A DNA stretch of 41,133 nt from Massilimicrobiota sp. An134 (GTDB taxonomy: Bacteria > Bacillota_I > Bacilli_A > Erysipelotrichales > Coprobacillaceae), in contig NZ_NFLH01000022.1 of the NCBI RefSeq assembly GCF_002160815.1, positions 1-41,133 on the forward strand, given 5' to 3'. Below, one piece after another: positions 5,783-39,789 of the stretch. A program made the position numbers and the translations under genes. Under the pieces are notes generated by a model. It ran no database searches. It worked only from the letters and a program-made list of their open reading frames with translations, and was not told the origin of the DNA. The stretch's first letter is position 1. Each line of letters opens with the position of its first letter.

Positions 5783-7091
5783 TGTTGATGACCTCCTTTA
5801 TACAGTGTCTTTCTTTCAAGATAATATAAATCATAAGCAAAGTATATAAAACCAAATATAAACATTCTAAACTATACATCACTTGGCTTGTGAGAAATTG
5901 ATGAGTGATAATATAATCCCCTAAAGAATAGATGTAAACAAATGGTATAAAGATAACTAATATAAGAAATAAAAGATTTTTAAATATAGAAATTTGAAAC
6001 AGTTTACTTGGACTATAACCTAAAGCATATTGTGTTGCGTAAATATGCATTATGGATTTGATATATAGTGAATACTTGATAATAAAACATAGTAACAACA
6101 TGATTAGCATCATAATAAAACACGGGATAATGAAGGGGGTTATATAACTCATGTCACCACTCATTAATACAAGGATAAACATTGTAGGTAAGACAATGGA
6201 ATGAATATTGGCAATAGAAACAAGCTGATTGGTTAAATCAATAAAGCTTGAAATGCTGTTGAATAAGAGTGGGTGATGAAGAAGTGTCGAGTGAAATAGA
6301 TCGAATAAAAGTGGAATGAAAGTATTAATAATGGAAGCAATAGAAGCAATAGATATTAGAAATAATGCAAAATAAATGAATTTATTTTCAAATAACGAAT
6401 CAGTCGCTAATGCATATAATGAGTAGAAAAAGATATGGAGAGTGAATAGGGATGAAATGATCTGACCGGTTGGAACCTTACGTTTTTGATCATGACGACT
6501 CATAGAAATCATATAAGGTGTCACTTTTTGCATATTCTTATGATTTATTGTTTCTATAATATGAGTATCAATCTCCGTAAACTGTTGAGCACTTATTGCT
6601 AAAATAAAGATCACAGTAAAGATTAAAAAGAAAGTATACAAGAAAAATGTATTTAAGAAATGATATTGGAAAATATAATTCATATGAATATGGATCAGAT
6701 AAATATTGATACCTTTCATAATCAAGATACCTAAAATGAATCCTAGAAAAAAAGCAATCAAAGACATGATACCATATTGAATTATCAGATAAAGAAATAA
6801 ATCTTTGGGTTTTCTTCCAAAAAGTAATAACATTGAAAATTCGTGTTTTTTATTTTGAATAAAATATTTCGCAACAAAAACACTCAATACAACTGCTATC
6901 ATTAAGGTTAAAAATGGAATAAAGGCAATTGCCCTGAATGTCATCCAGTCAATTTTTAAATCTAAACGCGAAAGATGATCATACATGGCAATAAAACAAA
7001 ATTCAAAAGAAGCTATCAATGTTAAGATACTTAATAAAAGTAAATAGTCTTTCTTTTGATGAATAACAATTTTTTTAATGAATGTAAGCAT
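5754..7091 (-). CDS. FtsX-like ABC transporter permease
   Basis: A 445-residue integral membrane protein with about eight to ten hydrophobic segments and no large extracellular domain that I can see. It begins MLTFIKKIVIHQKKDY, a short basic cytoplasmic start followed by the first membrane span, as in BceB/FtsX-type permeases. GAAGGG precedes the ATG on the minus strand. It overlaps the ATPase gene downstream, so the two form one transporter. No histidine kinase or response regulator sits beside it, unlike typical Bce modules. The assignment as permease is firm, the substrate is not known. Confidence 0.85.
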   Translation of the reverse strand: MLTFIKKIVIHQKKDYLLLLSILTLIASFEFCFIAMYDHLSRLDLKIDWMTFRAIAFIPFLTLMIAVVLSVFVAKYFIQNKKHEFSMLLLFGRKPKDLFLYLIIQYGIMSLIAFFLGFILGILIMKGINIYLIHIHMNYIFQYHFLNTFFLYTFFLIFTVIFILAISAQQFTEIDTHIIETINHKNMQKVTPYMISMSRHDQKRKVPTGQIISSLFTLHIFFYSLYALATDSLFENKFIYFALFLISIASIASIINTFIPLLFDLFHSTLLHHPLLFNSISSFIDLTNQLVSIANIHSIVLPTMFILVLMSGDMSYITPFIIPCFIMMLIMLLLCFIIKYSLYIKSIMHIYATQYALGYSPSKLFQISIFKNLLFLILVIFIPFVYIYSLGDYIITHQFLTSQVMYSLECLYLVLYTLLMIYIILKERHCIKEVINNVKYLNRGE

Positions 7092-35901: not shown

Positions 35902-36219
35902 TTATTTTGAATATTTTCTTCTTATAAAAGCTTCATAGATTCCTATGACAATAAACATTCCAGGTATAGTAGTGAAAATAGCTATGCGAAGAACAATTGT
36001 TTGATCTAAAATAACACCTTCTAAAACAAAAATAAGTCCATAAATAAATAATAATAATGCAGTTGCATGATTATGTGCAGTGACATCTGATATGTTTTTA
36101 GCGAGTAATGGACGTGTATTATGATAAATTGTTAAAGGTTTTTTAGATATATAATGATAAATTGCAGAAATTATTATGATGAATCCAATAATAATGACTA
36201 AATATTTTTCATTGCTCAT
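35902..36219 (-). CDS. Small three-span membrane protein
   Basis: A 105-residue hydrophobic protein with three predicted membrane spans and a basic end (IRRKYSK). GGAGGAATA on the minus strand supports ATG 36219; an earlier ATG at 36234 lies directly before that site. The segment KPLTIYHNTRPLLAKNISDVTAHN between spans one and two is polar and might be conserved, but I do not recognise the family. It is about 50 bases downstream of the truncated GH1 gene on the same strand. Confidence 0.7.
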   Translation of the reverse strand: MSNEKYLVIIIGFIIIISAIYHYISKKPLTIYHNTRPLLAKNISDVTAHNHATALLLFIYGLIFVLEGVILDQTIVLRIAIFTTIPGMFIVIGIYEAFIRRKYSK

Positions 36220-36271
36220 ATTATATTCCTCCATGATTGTTTTTTTTCATCTATTATTATATCATATTTGA

Positions 36272-36727
36272 CTATAGGAGAAAATGACGTGAATTGAAAT
36301 CTATTATTTTTCTATTTCTCCATGAATCATATTTATGAATCAGATGTAACGGAACATCAAAATGATTAATTATTATTAAGGGTTCAATATGATATTTTAA
36401 ACATTCAACAACAATATTTTCATCGCCATGAGGAAAGATTCTTGACCAACAAATAGAAAAACGATAAACATTAAAGCCTATTTGTGCAAGTATGGTAATT
36501 TCTTCTTTATAATGATGATAACCATCAATAGCATATCTTGAAGGATATCTCTGATCTTTTAATATTTCTGGATCTAAGGCATCAGATGCGACAGGAGAAT
36601 GATTTTCCTTAGCAGGAATAAAATCTACATTAGATAAACTTCTATTTTTTTCTAAATAAGCTCCTTCATATTGACTAGTAGCAGTTGTTCCACACCATAA
36701 GAAATTTTTTGGAAATTGATTCATCAT
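36272..36727 (-). pseudogene. Truncated GH1 6-phospho-beta-glucosidase
   Basis: The 151 codons begin like a full GH1 enzyme (NQFPKNFLWCGTTATSQYEGA) and continue to VYRFSICWSRIFPHGDEN. About 15 residues around the usual [10 protein letters not shown] are missing, and the sequence then resumes at VVECLKYHIEPLIIINHFDV. It stops soon after WRNRKIIDF, before both catalytic glutamates. So it has an internal in-frame deletion and has lost roughly two thirds of its length. It still has a ribosome-binding site and a strong upstream promoter with a leader. The intact relative is at 11,471-12,910. Confidence 0.88.
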
Positions 36728-36760
36728 TTTTTCCCTTCATTTTGTGATTATTCATGAGTA

Positions 36761-36856
36761 TAAAAAATGCACTCAGTTATAAAACCGAGCGCACTCGACA
36801 TCTTATCGACCTTGCAATTGCGACTGCATGACCTCCGATGACTGATAATTGTATGC
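36761..36856 (-). ncRNA. Leader or small RNA with its own promoter and terminator
   Basis: On the minus strand a start near 36,856 would give about 96 nt ending in a 9-bp hairpin (36,768-36,793) with T6. Two of its pairs are G-U and become A-C on the plus strand, so the structure belongs to the minus RNA. Inside lies GGAGG followed two bases later by an eight-codon frame (MQSQLQGR) and GC-rich blocks unlike the surroundings. It lies ahead of the truncated GH1 gene, so it may be an attenuator leader. It does not match the LicT/BglG RAT sequence as I know it. Confidence 0.55.
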
Positions 36857-36862
36857 TTTCAT

Positions 36863-36891
36863 ACAATAATATGTTATGTTTTTATTGTCAA
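36863..36891 (-). promoter_or_regulatory. Promoter of the minus-strand leader RNA
   Basis: On the minus strand a consensus TTGACA (36886-36891) is followed after 17 bp by TATTGT (36863-36868). Confidence 0.7.
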
Positions 36892-36892
36892 G

Positions 36893-37057
36893 CTATTTTC
36901 TACGATCTTTGAAAAACCCAATTAAAATCAAAGTAATGCCAAGAATGGCAAGCGGAATATAAATTTTATTAGGAATATGATAAACAAGTCTATCTATTCC
37001 AGAGATTAAAATATAAATTATTATTCCAACACTTATAAAAATGTTTCTATCTTTCAT
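36893..37057 (-). CDS. Two-span membrane peptide of 54 residues
   Basis: Starting at MKDRNIFISVGIIIYILIS, it has two hydrophobic helices separated by GIDRLVYHIPNK and ends FFKDRRK. GTGAGG lies seven bases before the ATG. It is 30 bases downstream of the P-loop kinase gene on the same strand. Its family is not recognised; the layout resembles many small uncharacterised Firmicutes membrane proteins. Confidence 0.6.
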   Translation of the reverse strand: MKDRNIFISVGIIIYILISGIDRLVYHIPNKIYIPLAILGITLILIGFFKDRRK

Positions 37058-37087
37058 AGCCTCACACTTCTTTAAATTAGAATTTGT

Positions 37088-37633
37088 CTAAAATAGTAAA
37101 ACCAAACCGCTTGCAACCATTTCCCTTACTGCGGAAACAGTATCACTAATTGAGTGCGTGGTTGTGTCTATGACATTTGATTCATAGATTCCTAAATTGG
37201 AAAATTGCTCCCACATTGTTTCTACCAATTCAATATTTGTGTCTCTATCCAGCTTCGCTCTTTCCGTAGCTCGTTTCAAAGTTTCTTCCTTACTGGCTCT
37301 TAAAATAATATAGTGTACCTCATAATGTTCACGGACAAGATTTTGCCACGGTTCTAAAAACCACGGTCCGATAATGCCGTCTACAATAACATCATATCCC
37401 CCACGAGCGTATCGTTTTGCCGCATCTAAAAAAGCTTCAATAACAACTAAATTTTGCTCATTTGACTCTGGCAAATGCGGTGGAATTGCCCCTTTACTCA
37501 AATAATGATAAAAGTCATCTGTGTGCATATGCACGGACTTTTCCAAATCTGATTCTTTTGCAACAATAGATGCCGTTGTAGTTTTCCCTGTCCCCGGCGA
37601 ACCTGTGATTACAATAATTCTACCTAGGTTCAT
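37088..37633 (-). CDS. P-loop kinase-like ATP-binding protein
   Basis: A 181-residue nucleotide-binding protein. Walker A is GSPGTGKTT at residues 11-19, and DDFYHYLSKGAIPPHLPESN resembles the substrate loop of the AAA_33/chloramphenicol-phosphotransferase-like kinases. RATERAKLDRD is a likely lid with arginines. It could phosphorylate a small molecule such as a nucleoside, shikimate-like compound or antibiotic; the sequence does not say which. Its GC content and codon use (many GCC, ACG, CGG) are clearly higher than in the neighbouring genes, so recent horizontal transfer is likely. Confidence 0.82.
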   Translation of the reverse strand: MNLGRIIVITGSPGTGKTTTASIVAKESDLEKSVHMHTDDFYHYLSKGAIPPHLPESNEQNLVVIEAFLDAAKRYARGGYDVIVDGIIGPWFLEPWQNLVREHYEVHYIILRASKEETLKRATERAKLDRDTNIELVETMWEQFSNLGIYESNVIDTTTHSISDTVSAVREMVASGLVLLF

Positions 37634-37662
37634 CTATGTTTCACCTCCACAAATTCCAATTT

Positions 37663-38154
37663 TCAAACCATCTTACTCATTATTAAAGCAATAATTAAAG
37701 CAATTATTGCAAATCCAACTATGGTTCCCAGCCATTTGACTATTTTCATTTTTGTAGGAATATAAGGTTTTAATTCTTCTGTATTGGGTATATCCCACGC
37801 TTTTGTATGTTCTATCCAATACCAGTCAACAAAAAATCTATCAAATAGTCCCATTATATACATTATAAATAAACTTTGAATAAAAATATTTCCAAACTCT
37901 TTTGCATCATTTATATAGCAAACCATTAATGGCACTAGAATAAAACAAGGTAAGTATAAAACTATAATTGATATAATGGTTTGTTTCTTTATTTCTTTTT
38001 GAGTAGTATATCCTAATTTTATTGCTTTTTCTTGAACATTCTTTTCGTAAAATACAGTAAATTTTTCAGGACCATTTGCTATACCAATAACACAAAACAT
38101 TAAAAGTATAAAACATAATACTATACCTTCCATTAGTAACATTAGAATTAACAT
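37663..38154 (-). CDS. Four-span membrane protein of unknown function
   Basis: About 163 residues with membrane spans near both ends and in the middle. The loop DRFFVDWYWIEHTKAWDIPNTEELKPY is aromatic and charged and looks conserved, with Asp, His and Glu that could bind metal or act in catalysis. The ATG at 38154 is chosen because the frame upstream starts only with TTG. I do not recognise the family. It is 30 bases upstream of the kinase gene on the same strand and directly follows the MazG-like remnant. Confidence 0.7.
   Translation of the reverse strand: MLILMLLMEGIVLCFILLMFCVIGIANGPEKFTVFYEKNVQEKAIKLGYTTQKEIKKQTIISIIVLYLPCFILVPLMVCYINDAKEFGNIFIQSLFIMYIMGLFDRFFVDWYWIEHTKAWDIPNTEELKPYIPTKMKIVKWLGTIVGFAIIALIIALIMSKMV

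Positions 38155-39606: not shown

Positions 39607-39789
<183 letters not shown>

Follow-up and report, generated by a model that had tools for sequence, protein, structure and literature searches.

A conserved leader-RNA family of gut bacteria, most likely a transcriptional ON riboswitch, with a probably stranded copy in Massilimicrobiota

Described leader RNAs and the Massilimicrobiota locus

The known systems closest to the leader analyzed here are the guanidine-IV riboswitch (GGAM-1, the mepA leader) and its orphan variant Gd4v. Excerpts of three publications (PMC9788692, PMC7736828, PMC11611296) describe both as acting by terminator control with ON logic in front of MATE and GNAT genes. 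According to the same excerpts, SugE is the gene most commonly associated with guanidine-IV, whose second hairpin extends into the terminator, and more than half of the Gd4v RNAs, which are gut-enriched, precede a PRK07324 transaminase. The conserved bases in the second loop of guanidine-IV are G66, U67 and G72 in L. lactis and G71, U72 and G77 in C. botulinum (excerpts of PMC7736828 and PMC11611296); the spacing G-U-N4-G used below was derived from these two published constructs. Our leader resembles guanidine-IV in having two hairpins, a possible loop–loop contact, an intrinsic terminator, a putative ON logic and, in some members, MATE or GNAT genes downstream. With Gd4v it shares a gut association, occurrence in Bacillota and Bacteroidota, MATE/GNAT genes and the lack of an assigned ligand.

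The leader lies in a 41,133-nt stretch of Massilimicrobiota sp. An134 DNA (contig NZ_NFLH01000022.1), hereafter the window. Its parts, several of them defined by a 77-row alignment of relatives, are as follows.

36863..36891, minus strand: sigma-70-type promoter TTGACA-17-TATTGT (sequence scan; such sites are also enriched upstream of the family)
36837..36840, minus strand: 5' strand of helix P1, CAUC (100% of P1 cells paired in the 77-row alignment)
36833..36836, minus strand: 5' side of the internal loop, GGAG, near-invariant in the 77-row alignment and lying within GGAGG
36813..36828, minus strand: apical hairpin UGCAGU-CGCA-AUUGCA (loop L1, family consensus CGYA; both-sided changes at all 6 pairs)
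36803..36807, minus strand: 3' side of the internal loop, GAUAA (GGAUAA or GGAGAA in many relatives of the 77-row alignment)
36799..36802, minus strand: 3' strand of P1, GAUG (covariation; part of the terminator arm in 4 Bacteroidales leaders)
36786..36797, minus strand: hairpin P2, CGAG-UGCG-CUCG (loop L2, UGMG), with the 5' arm of the terminator overlapping its 3' strand
36765..36796, minus strand: intrinsic terminator hairpin of 14 pairs followed by a U-tract, alternative to P2 (folding, terminator finder)
36272..36727, minus strand: truncated GH1 gene of 151 aa, unlike the usual cargo of the family (positions 2-141 of 453 in profile PF00232)

An initial annotation of this DNA had placed a strong promoter and a strand-specific terminator ahead of a dead GH1 gene, and these elements were all recovered. 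The promoter, with TTGACA at 36891-36886, a 17-nt spacer and TATTGT at 36868-36863 on the minus strand, carries 10 of 12 consensus bases and is the top promoter-like site within 36000-37700. The same interval holds two terminator-like sites where 0.5 would be expected (sd 0.6). Of the two, the strong site (36796-36765, minus) is the 14-pair hairpin with its T-run, and no site was reported on the plus strand there. The transcript of roughly 96 nt ends in this hairpin as proposed and folds at -30 kcal/mol (z -3.59), a value equaled by 1 of 200 shuffles and not reached by the other 199. It also contains the described GGAGG and 8-codon frame (ATG CAG TCG CAA TTG CAA GGT CGA TAA). The GH1 ORF corresponds to about the first third of the profile and is indeed truncated.

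The element had not been recognized as a known riboswitch, and Rfam 15 agreed, giving no gathering-level match across the whole window. The best sub-threshold match spanning the whole element was the GibS sRNA (RF04182), which scored 34 bits where gathering requires 115. Across 15 loci of relatives, the sole gathering-level hits were pemK and c-di-GMP-I; these lie in L047 and away from its element (1721-1739). The family is undescribed in the literature searched, including excerpts of PMC11109978, PMC8632094 and PMC11477304; most subscription papers, preprints and supplements fell outside the scope of that search.

The leader family and its conserved structure

A DNA search of 60 relatives produced a single clear homologue, in genome G030, with 86-88% identity; the same genome gave the sole other match among 43 genomes of the family. 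Its element is located about 40 nt upstream of an intact MATE gene, and the differences between its stem and that of the window are paired changes. A covariance model built from these two sequences (R1) was run on 315 genomes of the order and had matches in 19 of them at E<=0.1. Reading of the sequences judged 13 of the 20 matches listed to be real and 7 to be chance. The real ones share a block GUCAYCGGAGG, a hairpin with a CGNA loop, and a block AAGRUGUCGRGUGMGCYCGG.

When named genomes were scanned for exact matches to a pattern of the 3' block alone, at least 118 stretches were found, of which 80 were taken as loci; these contain 83 pattern matches. The 5' block (TCAYCGGAG), which is outside the pattern, was present within 120 nt upstream in 73 of the 83 matches listed (0 mismatches in 61, 1 mismatch in 12). 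The remaining ten comprise three with too short an upstream sequence (L050, L081, L102) and seven that look like chance; L104 from Actinocorallia, a one-mismatch case, was also chance-like and was dropped. Most sources of the matches listed are gut Bacillota, and several are Bacteroidales. A profile lacking the window row still detected the window (E 8.4e-14), and removing a further 6 rows with at least 80% identity changed this value to 1e-12; the reversed window gave no match with the leave-one-out profile. A second model (R2), run on 392 genomes of the phylum, had matches in 11 genomes including the window's own, all at E <1e-7, and 6 of these 11 loci were ones that the strict sequence expression did not display. 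The window RNA belongs to a family of conserved leader RNAs. Carriage by phages or plasmids was considered and rejected: all 4 matches in viral contigs were missing the 5' block, and the plasmid search returned no match to the element.

The 77-row alignment omits rows containing N (L047, L083), identical rows, L104 and the plus-strand L120, as well as four relatives from the R1 search (L030, L038, L040, L045) that are duplicates or near-duplicates. It contains four helices, namely P1, a short inner helix, the apical hairpin and P2, in which 93.6% of cells are paired. The covariation score of 0.535 exceeded the 0.209 of shuffles and the 0.090 or less of slid versions, and cells changed on both sides numbered 295 against 100. 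The P1 column pair 8-85 is U-A in 66 rows and C-G in 11, the P2 column pair 91-98 is A-U in 39, G-C in 36 and G-U in 2, and all 6 pairs of the apical hairpin vary on both sides. Since P1, P2 and the loops vary little, much of this support comes from the apical hairpin and a few other pairs. Loss of the paired bases had been named beforehand as a finding that would count against the RNA; the pairs are kept and covary. The window element stands above chance because homologous leaders with compensatory changes occur elsewhere.

Near-invariant positions are the internal loop, GGAG opposite (G)GAUAA, and the loops CGYA and UGMG; for the 3' block, part of this uniformity is built in, since the scan pattern fixes that block. 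A contact between the CGYA and UGMG loops may exist: 91.2% of its cells are pairable, a figure that shuffles match, and 0 changes are both-sided. The third bases of the two loops are strongly associated, with CGCA/UGCG in 37 rows and CGUA/UGAG in 23.

A larger subtype (L037, L042, L047, L058, L071 and others) has an extra hairpin within hairpin 1, GGGGAUCGUA...UGCAGGCCGCC, and the loops CGUA/UGAG; a GNAT gene is downstream in most of the members read. In L062, two copies of the element (5816-5897 and 6046-6109, minus strand) stand in tandem about 230 nt apart ahead of a single ABC transporter gene, a possible tandem switch. The idea that the aptamer mimics the 23S rRNA peptidyl-transferase centre was discarded, as the best match of the window was reached by 245 of 500 shuffles and that of the consensus by 115 of 500; the mean similarity of the 77 rows lay above 20 shuffle sets, the rows being related to one another.

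Competing folds and downstream genes

The terminator hairpin of the initial annotation is in fact one of two alternative folds, and the conserved portion is the aptamer-like fold upstream of it (36841-36786). The 5' arm of the best terminator takes up the P2 3' strand in 67 of 78 leaders; P2 and the terminator are mutually exclusive because that arm contains the strand. In four others, all Bacteroidales (L098, L107, L118, L124), it takes up the P1 3' strand, bringing the leaders with a predicted overlap to 71 of 78; a simple terminator finder gave no overlap with either strand in the other 7. The energy model forms P2 in 73 of 78 aptamers folded alone versus 7 of 78 full leaders, and forcing P1 and P2 together in the full leader costs 10.8 kcal/mol on average. 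L124 shows no such cost and no switch in this model. In the 75 nt upstream of the aptamer, 27 of 78 leaders have a promoter-like site scoring at least 10/12, compared with 2 of 150 control segments.

Riboswitches are generally recognized by a covarying aptamer in the 5' leaders of functionally coherent genes together with an expression platform that excludes the aptamer. The first is present in this family, and the folding calculations predict the second. We favor, as the probable reading, that the leaders of this family act as ON switches through transcription attenuation, most likely as riboswitches for a putative toxic small molecule, and that the window carries a probably stranded copy. 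The polymerase would first transcribe the aptamer, that is P1, the GGAG/GAUAA internal loop and the CGYA apical hairpin, and then P2 with its UGMG loop. When no ligand is present, the next strand would capture the P2 3' strand, the terminator would form and transcription would stop. When ligand is bound, the aptamer would retain P2 and block the terminator, allowing transcription of the efflux or acetyltransferase gene; the CGYA–UGMG contact could perhaps lock the ligand-bound aptamer.

Downstream proteins were taken from 75 places, 5 of which gave no ORF, with the gene behind the two L062 elements counted once; a few of the automatically picked ORFs are probably wrong. The resulting 69 proteins span 19 matched Pfam families and include 22 MATE proteins, at least 18 GNAT proteins (18 in the main family), 13 proteins with an ABC membrane domain (exporters) and 7 cytidylate-kinase-like proteins. 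GH1, SMR/SugE (PF00893) and aminotransferase proteins each account for 0 of the 69. Where the kinase loci were read, the kinase gene shares an operon with MATE: it is followed directly by a MATE gene in L101, L116, L093 and L096, and in L100 by one more gene and then a MATE-like ORF. Among solved structures the kinase matches 3hdt and 3fdi, one of them described as a putative kinase and the other as uncharacterized, and the GNAT protein matches two chains named SAKe, over short stretches only. Elsewhere (L033, L064, L120, L125, L038/L078) the element precedes an ORF of about 42-47 codons encoding a basic, coil-like protein, and the product in L033 had no Pfam match.

For the window copy, the closest aptamers are those of L086 (90%) and then L108, L089, L029 and L006 (84%), all of them upstream of ABC or MATE genes where the protein start is legible. 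We infer that the copy in the window, which now stands ahead of the GH1 remnant, has lost its usual cargo. The aptamer, terminator and promoter persist there while the next gene is a GH1 fragment, so the copy is probably stranded. The GH1 gene has its own ribosome-binding-like site. GH1 proteins occur in 40 of 43 genomes of the family, which makes their distribution uninformative about the RNA. The earlier proposal of a cis-regulatory RNA left over from the glucosidase gene is upheld for its cis-regulatory part; an ancestral role at a glucosidase gene finds no support in the downstream count of relatives. Elsewhere on the minus strand of the window, a 59-aa ORF (39607-39786) looks by eye like the C terminus of a class II aminoacyl-tRNA synthetase; taken with the GH1 remnant, it suggests that this region is decaying. 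A P-loop kinase-like gene (37088-37633) with AAA_18 and chloramphenicol phosphotransferase-like matches lies upstream of the element, likewise on the minus strand.

Alternative readings and biological meaning

The shared terminator control with putative ON logic, the MATE and GNAT genes and, for Gd4v, the gut enrichment could mean that the element is a divergent guanidine-IV riboswitch or a Gd4v variant, with hairpin 1 in kissing contact with the hairpin 2 loop. Three differences count against this. The G-U-N4-G second loop is missing from the aligned 3' block (columns 82-101); the second hairpin of guanidine-IV is the terminator itself, whereas here P2 excludes the terminator; and neither the SugE typical of guanidine-IV nor the transaminase typical of Gd4v appears among the 69 downstream proteins. 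SugE searches matched 2 of 59 and 1 of 149 genomes, one match being a 271-aa protein atypical for SugE, and 0 proteins in the window's genome; because SugE is nearly absent from the genomes searched, they offered no real guanidine-IV leader as a control. With the element set apart from these systems by their published descriptions rather than by alignments, we consider such a relation unlikely.

GH1 genes of Bacillota are often under the control of BglG/LicT antiterminators. The GH1 gene of the window is of this class, and the conserved loops could serve as a protein site, so that a repressor or antiterminator protein binding the internal loop might run the attenuator. The leaders, however, precede several gene classes in two phyla with no common adjacent regulator noticed, conserve about 55 nt with the loops included, and in no relative precede GH1. 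A protein-dependent leader is accordingly rather improbable.

The leader-peptide attenuator suggested initially would depend on ribosome stalling at the GGAGG and 8-codon frame, induced by ribosome-targeting drugs. The window does have GGAGG plus an ATG, efflux and acetyltransferase cargo would suit such inducers, and an ABC-transporter-like ORF after the kinase in L100 was read by eye as ABC-F. But among 77 relatives only 8 have an ATG no more than 14 nt from GGAG, the 8-codon frame lacks conservation, and substitutions in the apical stem, which would have to be translated, are paired; this proposal now looks very improbable. An independent trans-acting small RNA, also suggested initially, or a chance promoter plus hairpin is hardly credible for a family whose members sit in 5' leaders with a conserved, covarying structure, even if the window copy, fronting a broken gene, could still produce the ~96-nt RNA and may now yield only this short terminated transcript.

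Returning to the riboswitch, a bolder version would make the family a new orphan class, spread horizontally among gut Bacillota and Bacteroidales, that responds to an antibiotic or a toxic compound of the gut by activating MATE/ABC/GNAT detoxification, with two phyla using two terminators on one aptamer (capture of P2 or of P1). We regard this version as evenly poised between right and wrong. Should the riboswitch reading hold, an RNA sensor absent from present catalogues stands upstream of multidrug exporters and acetyltransferases in common gut bacteria. Its length of about 60-95 nt would make the RNA tractable for ligand screening, and the ligand would reveal the purpose and the inducers of these pumps in the gut.
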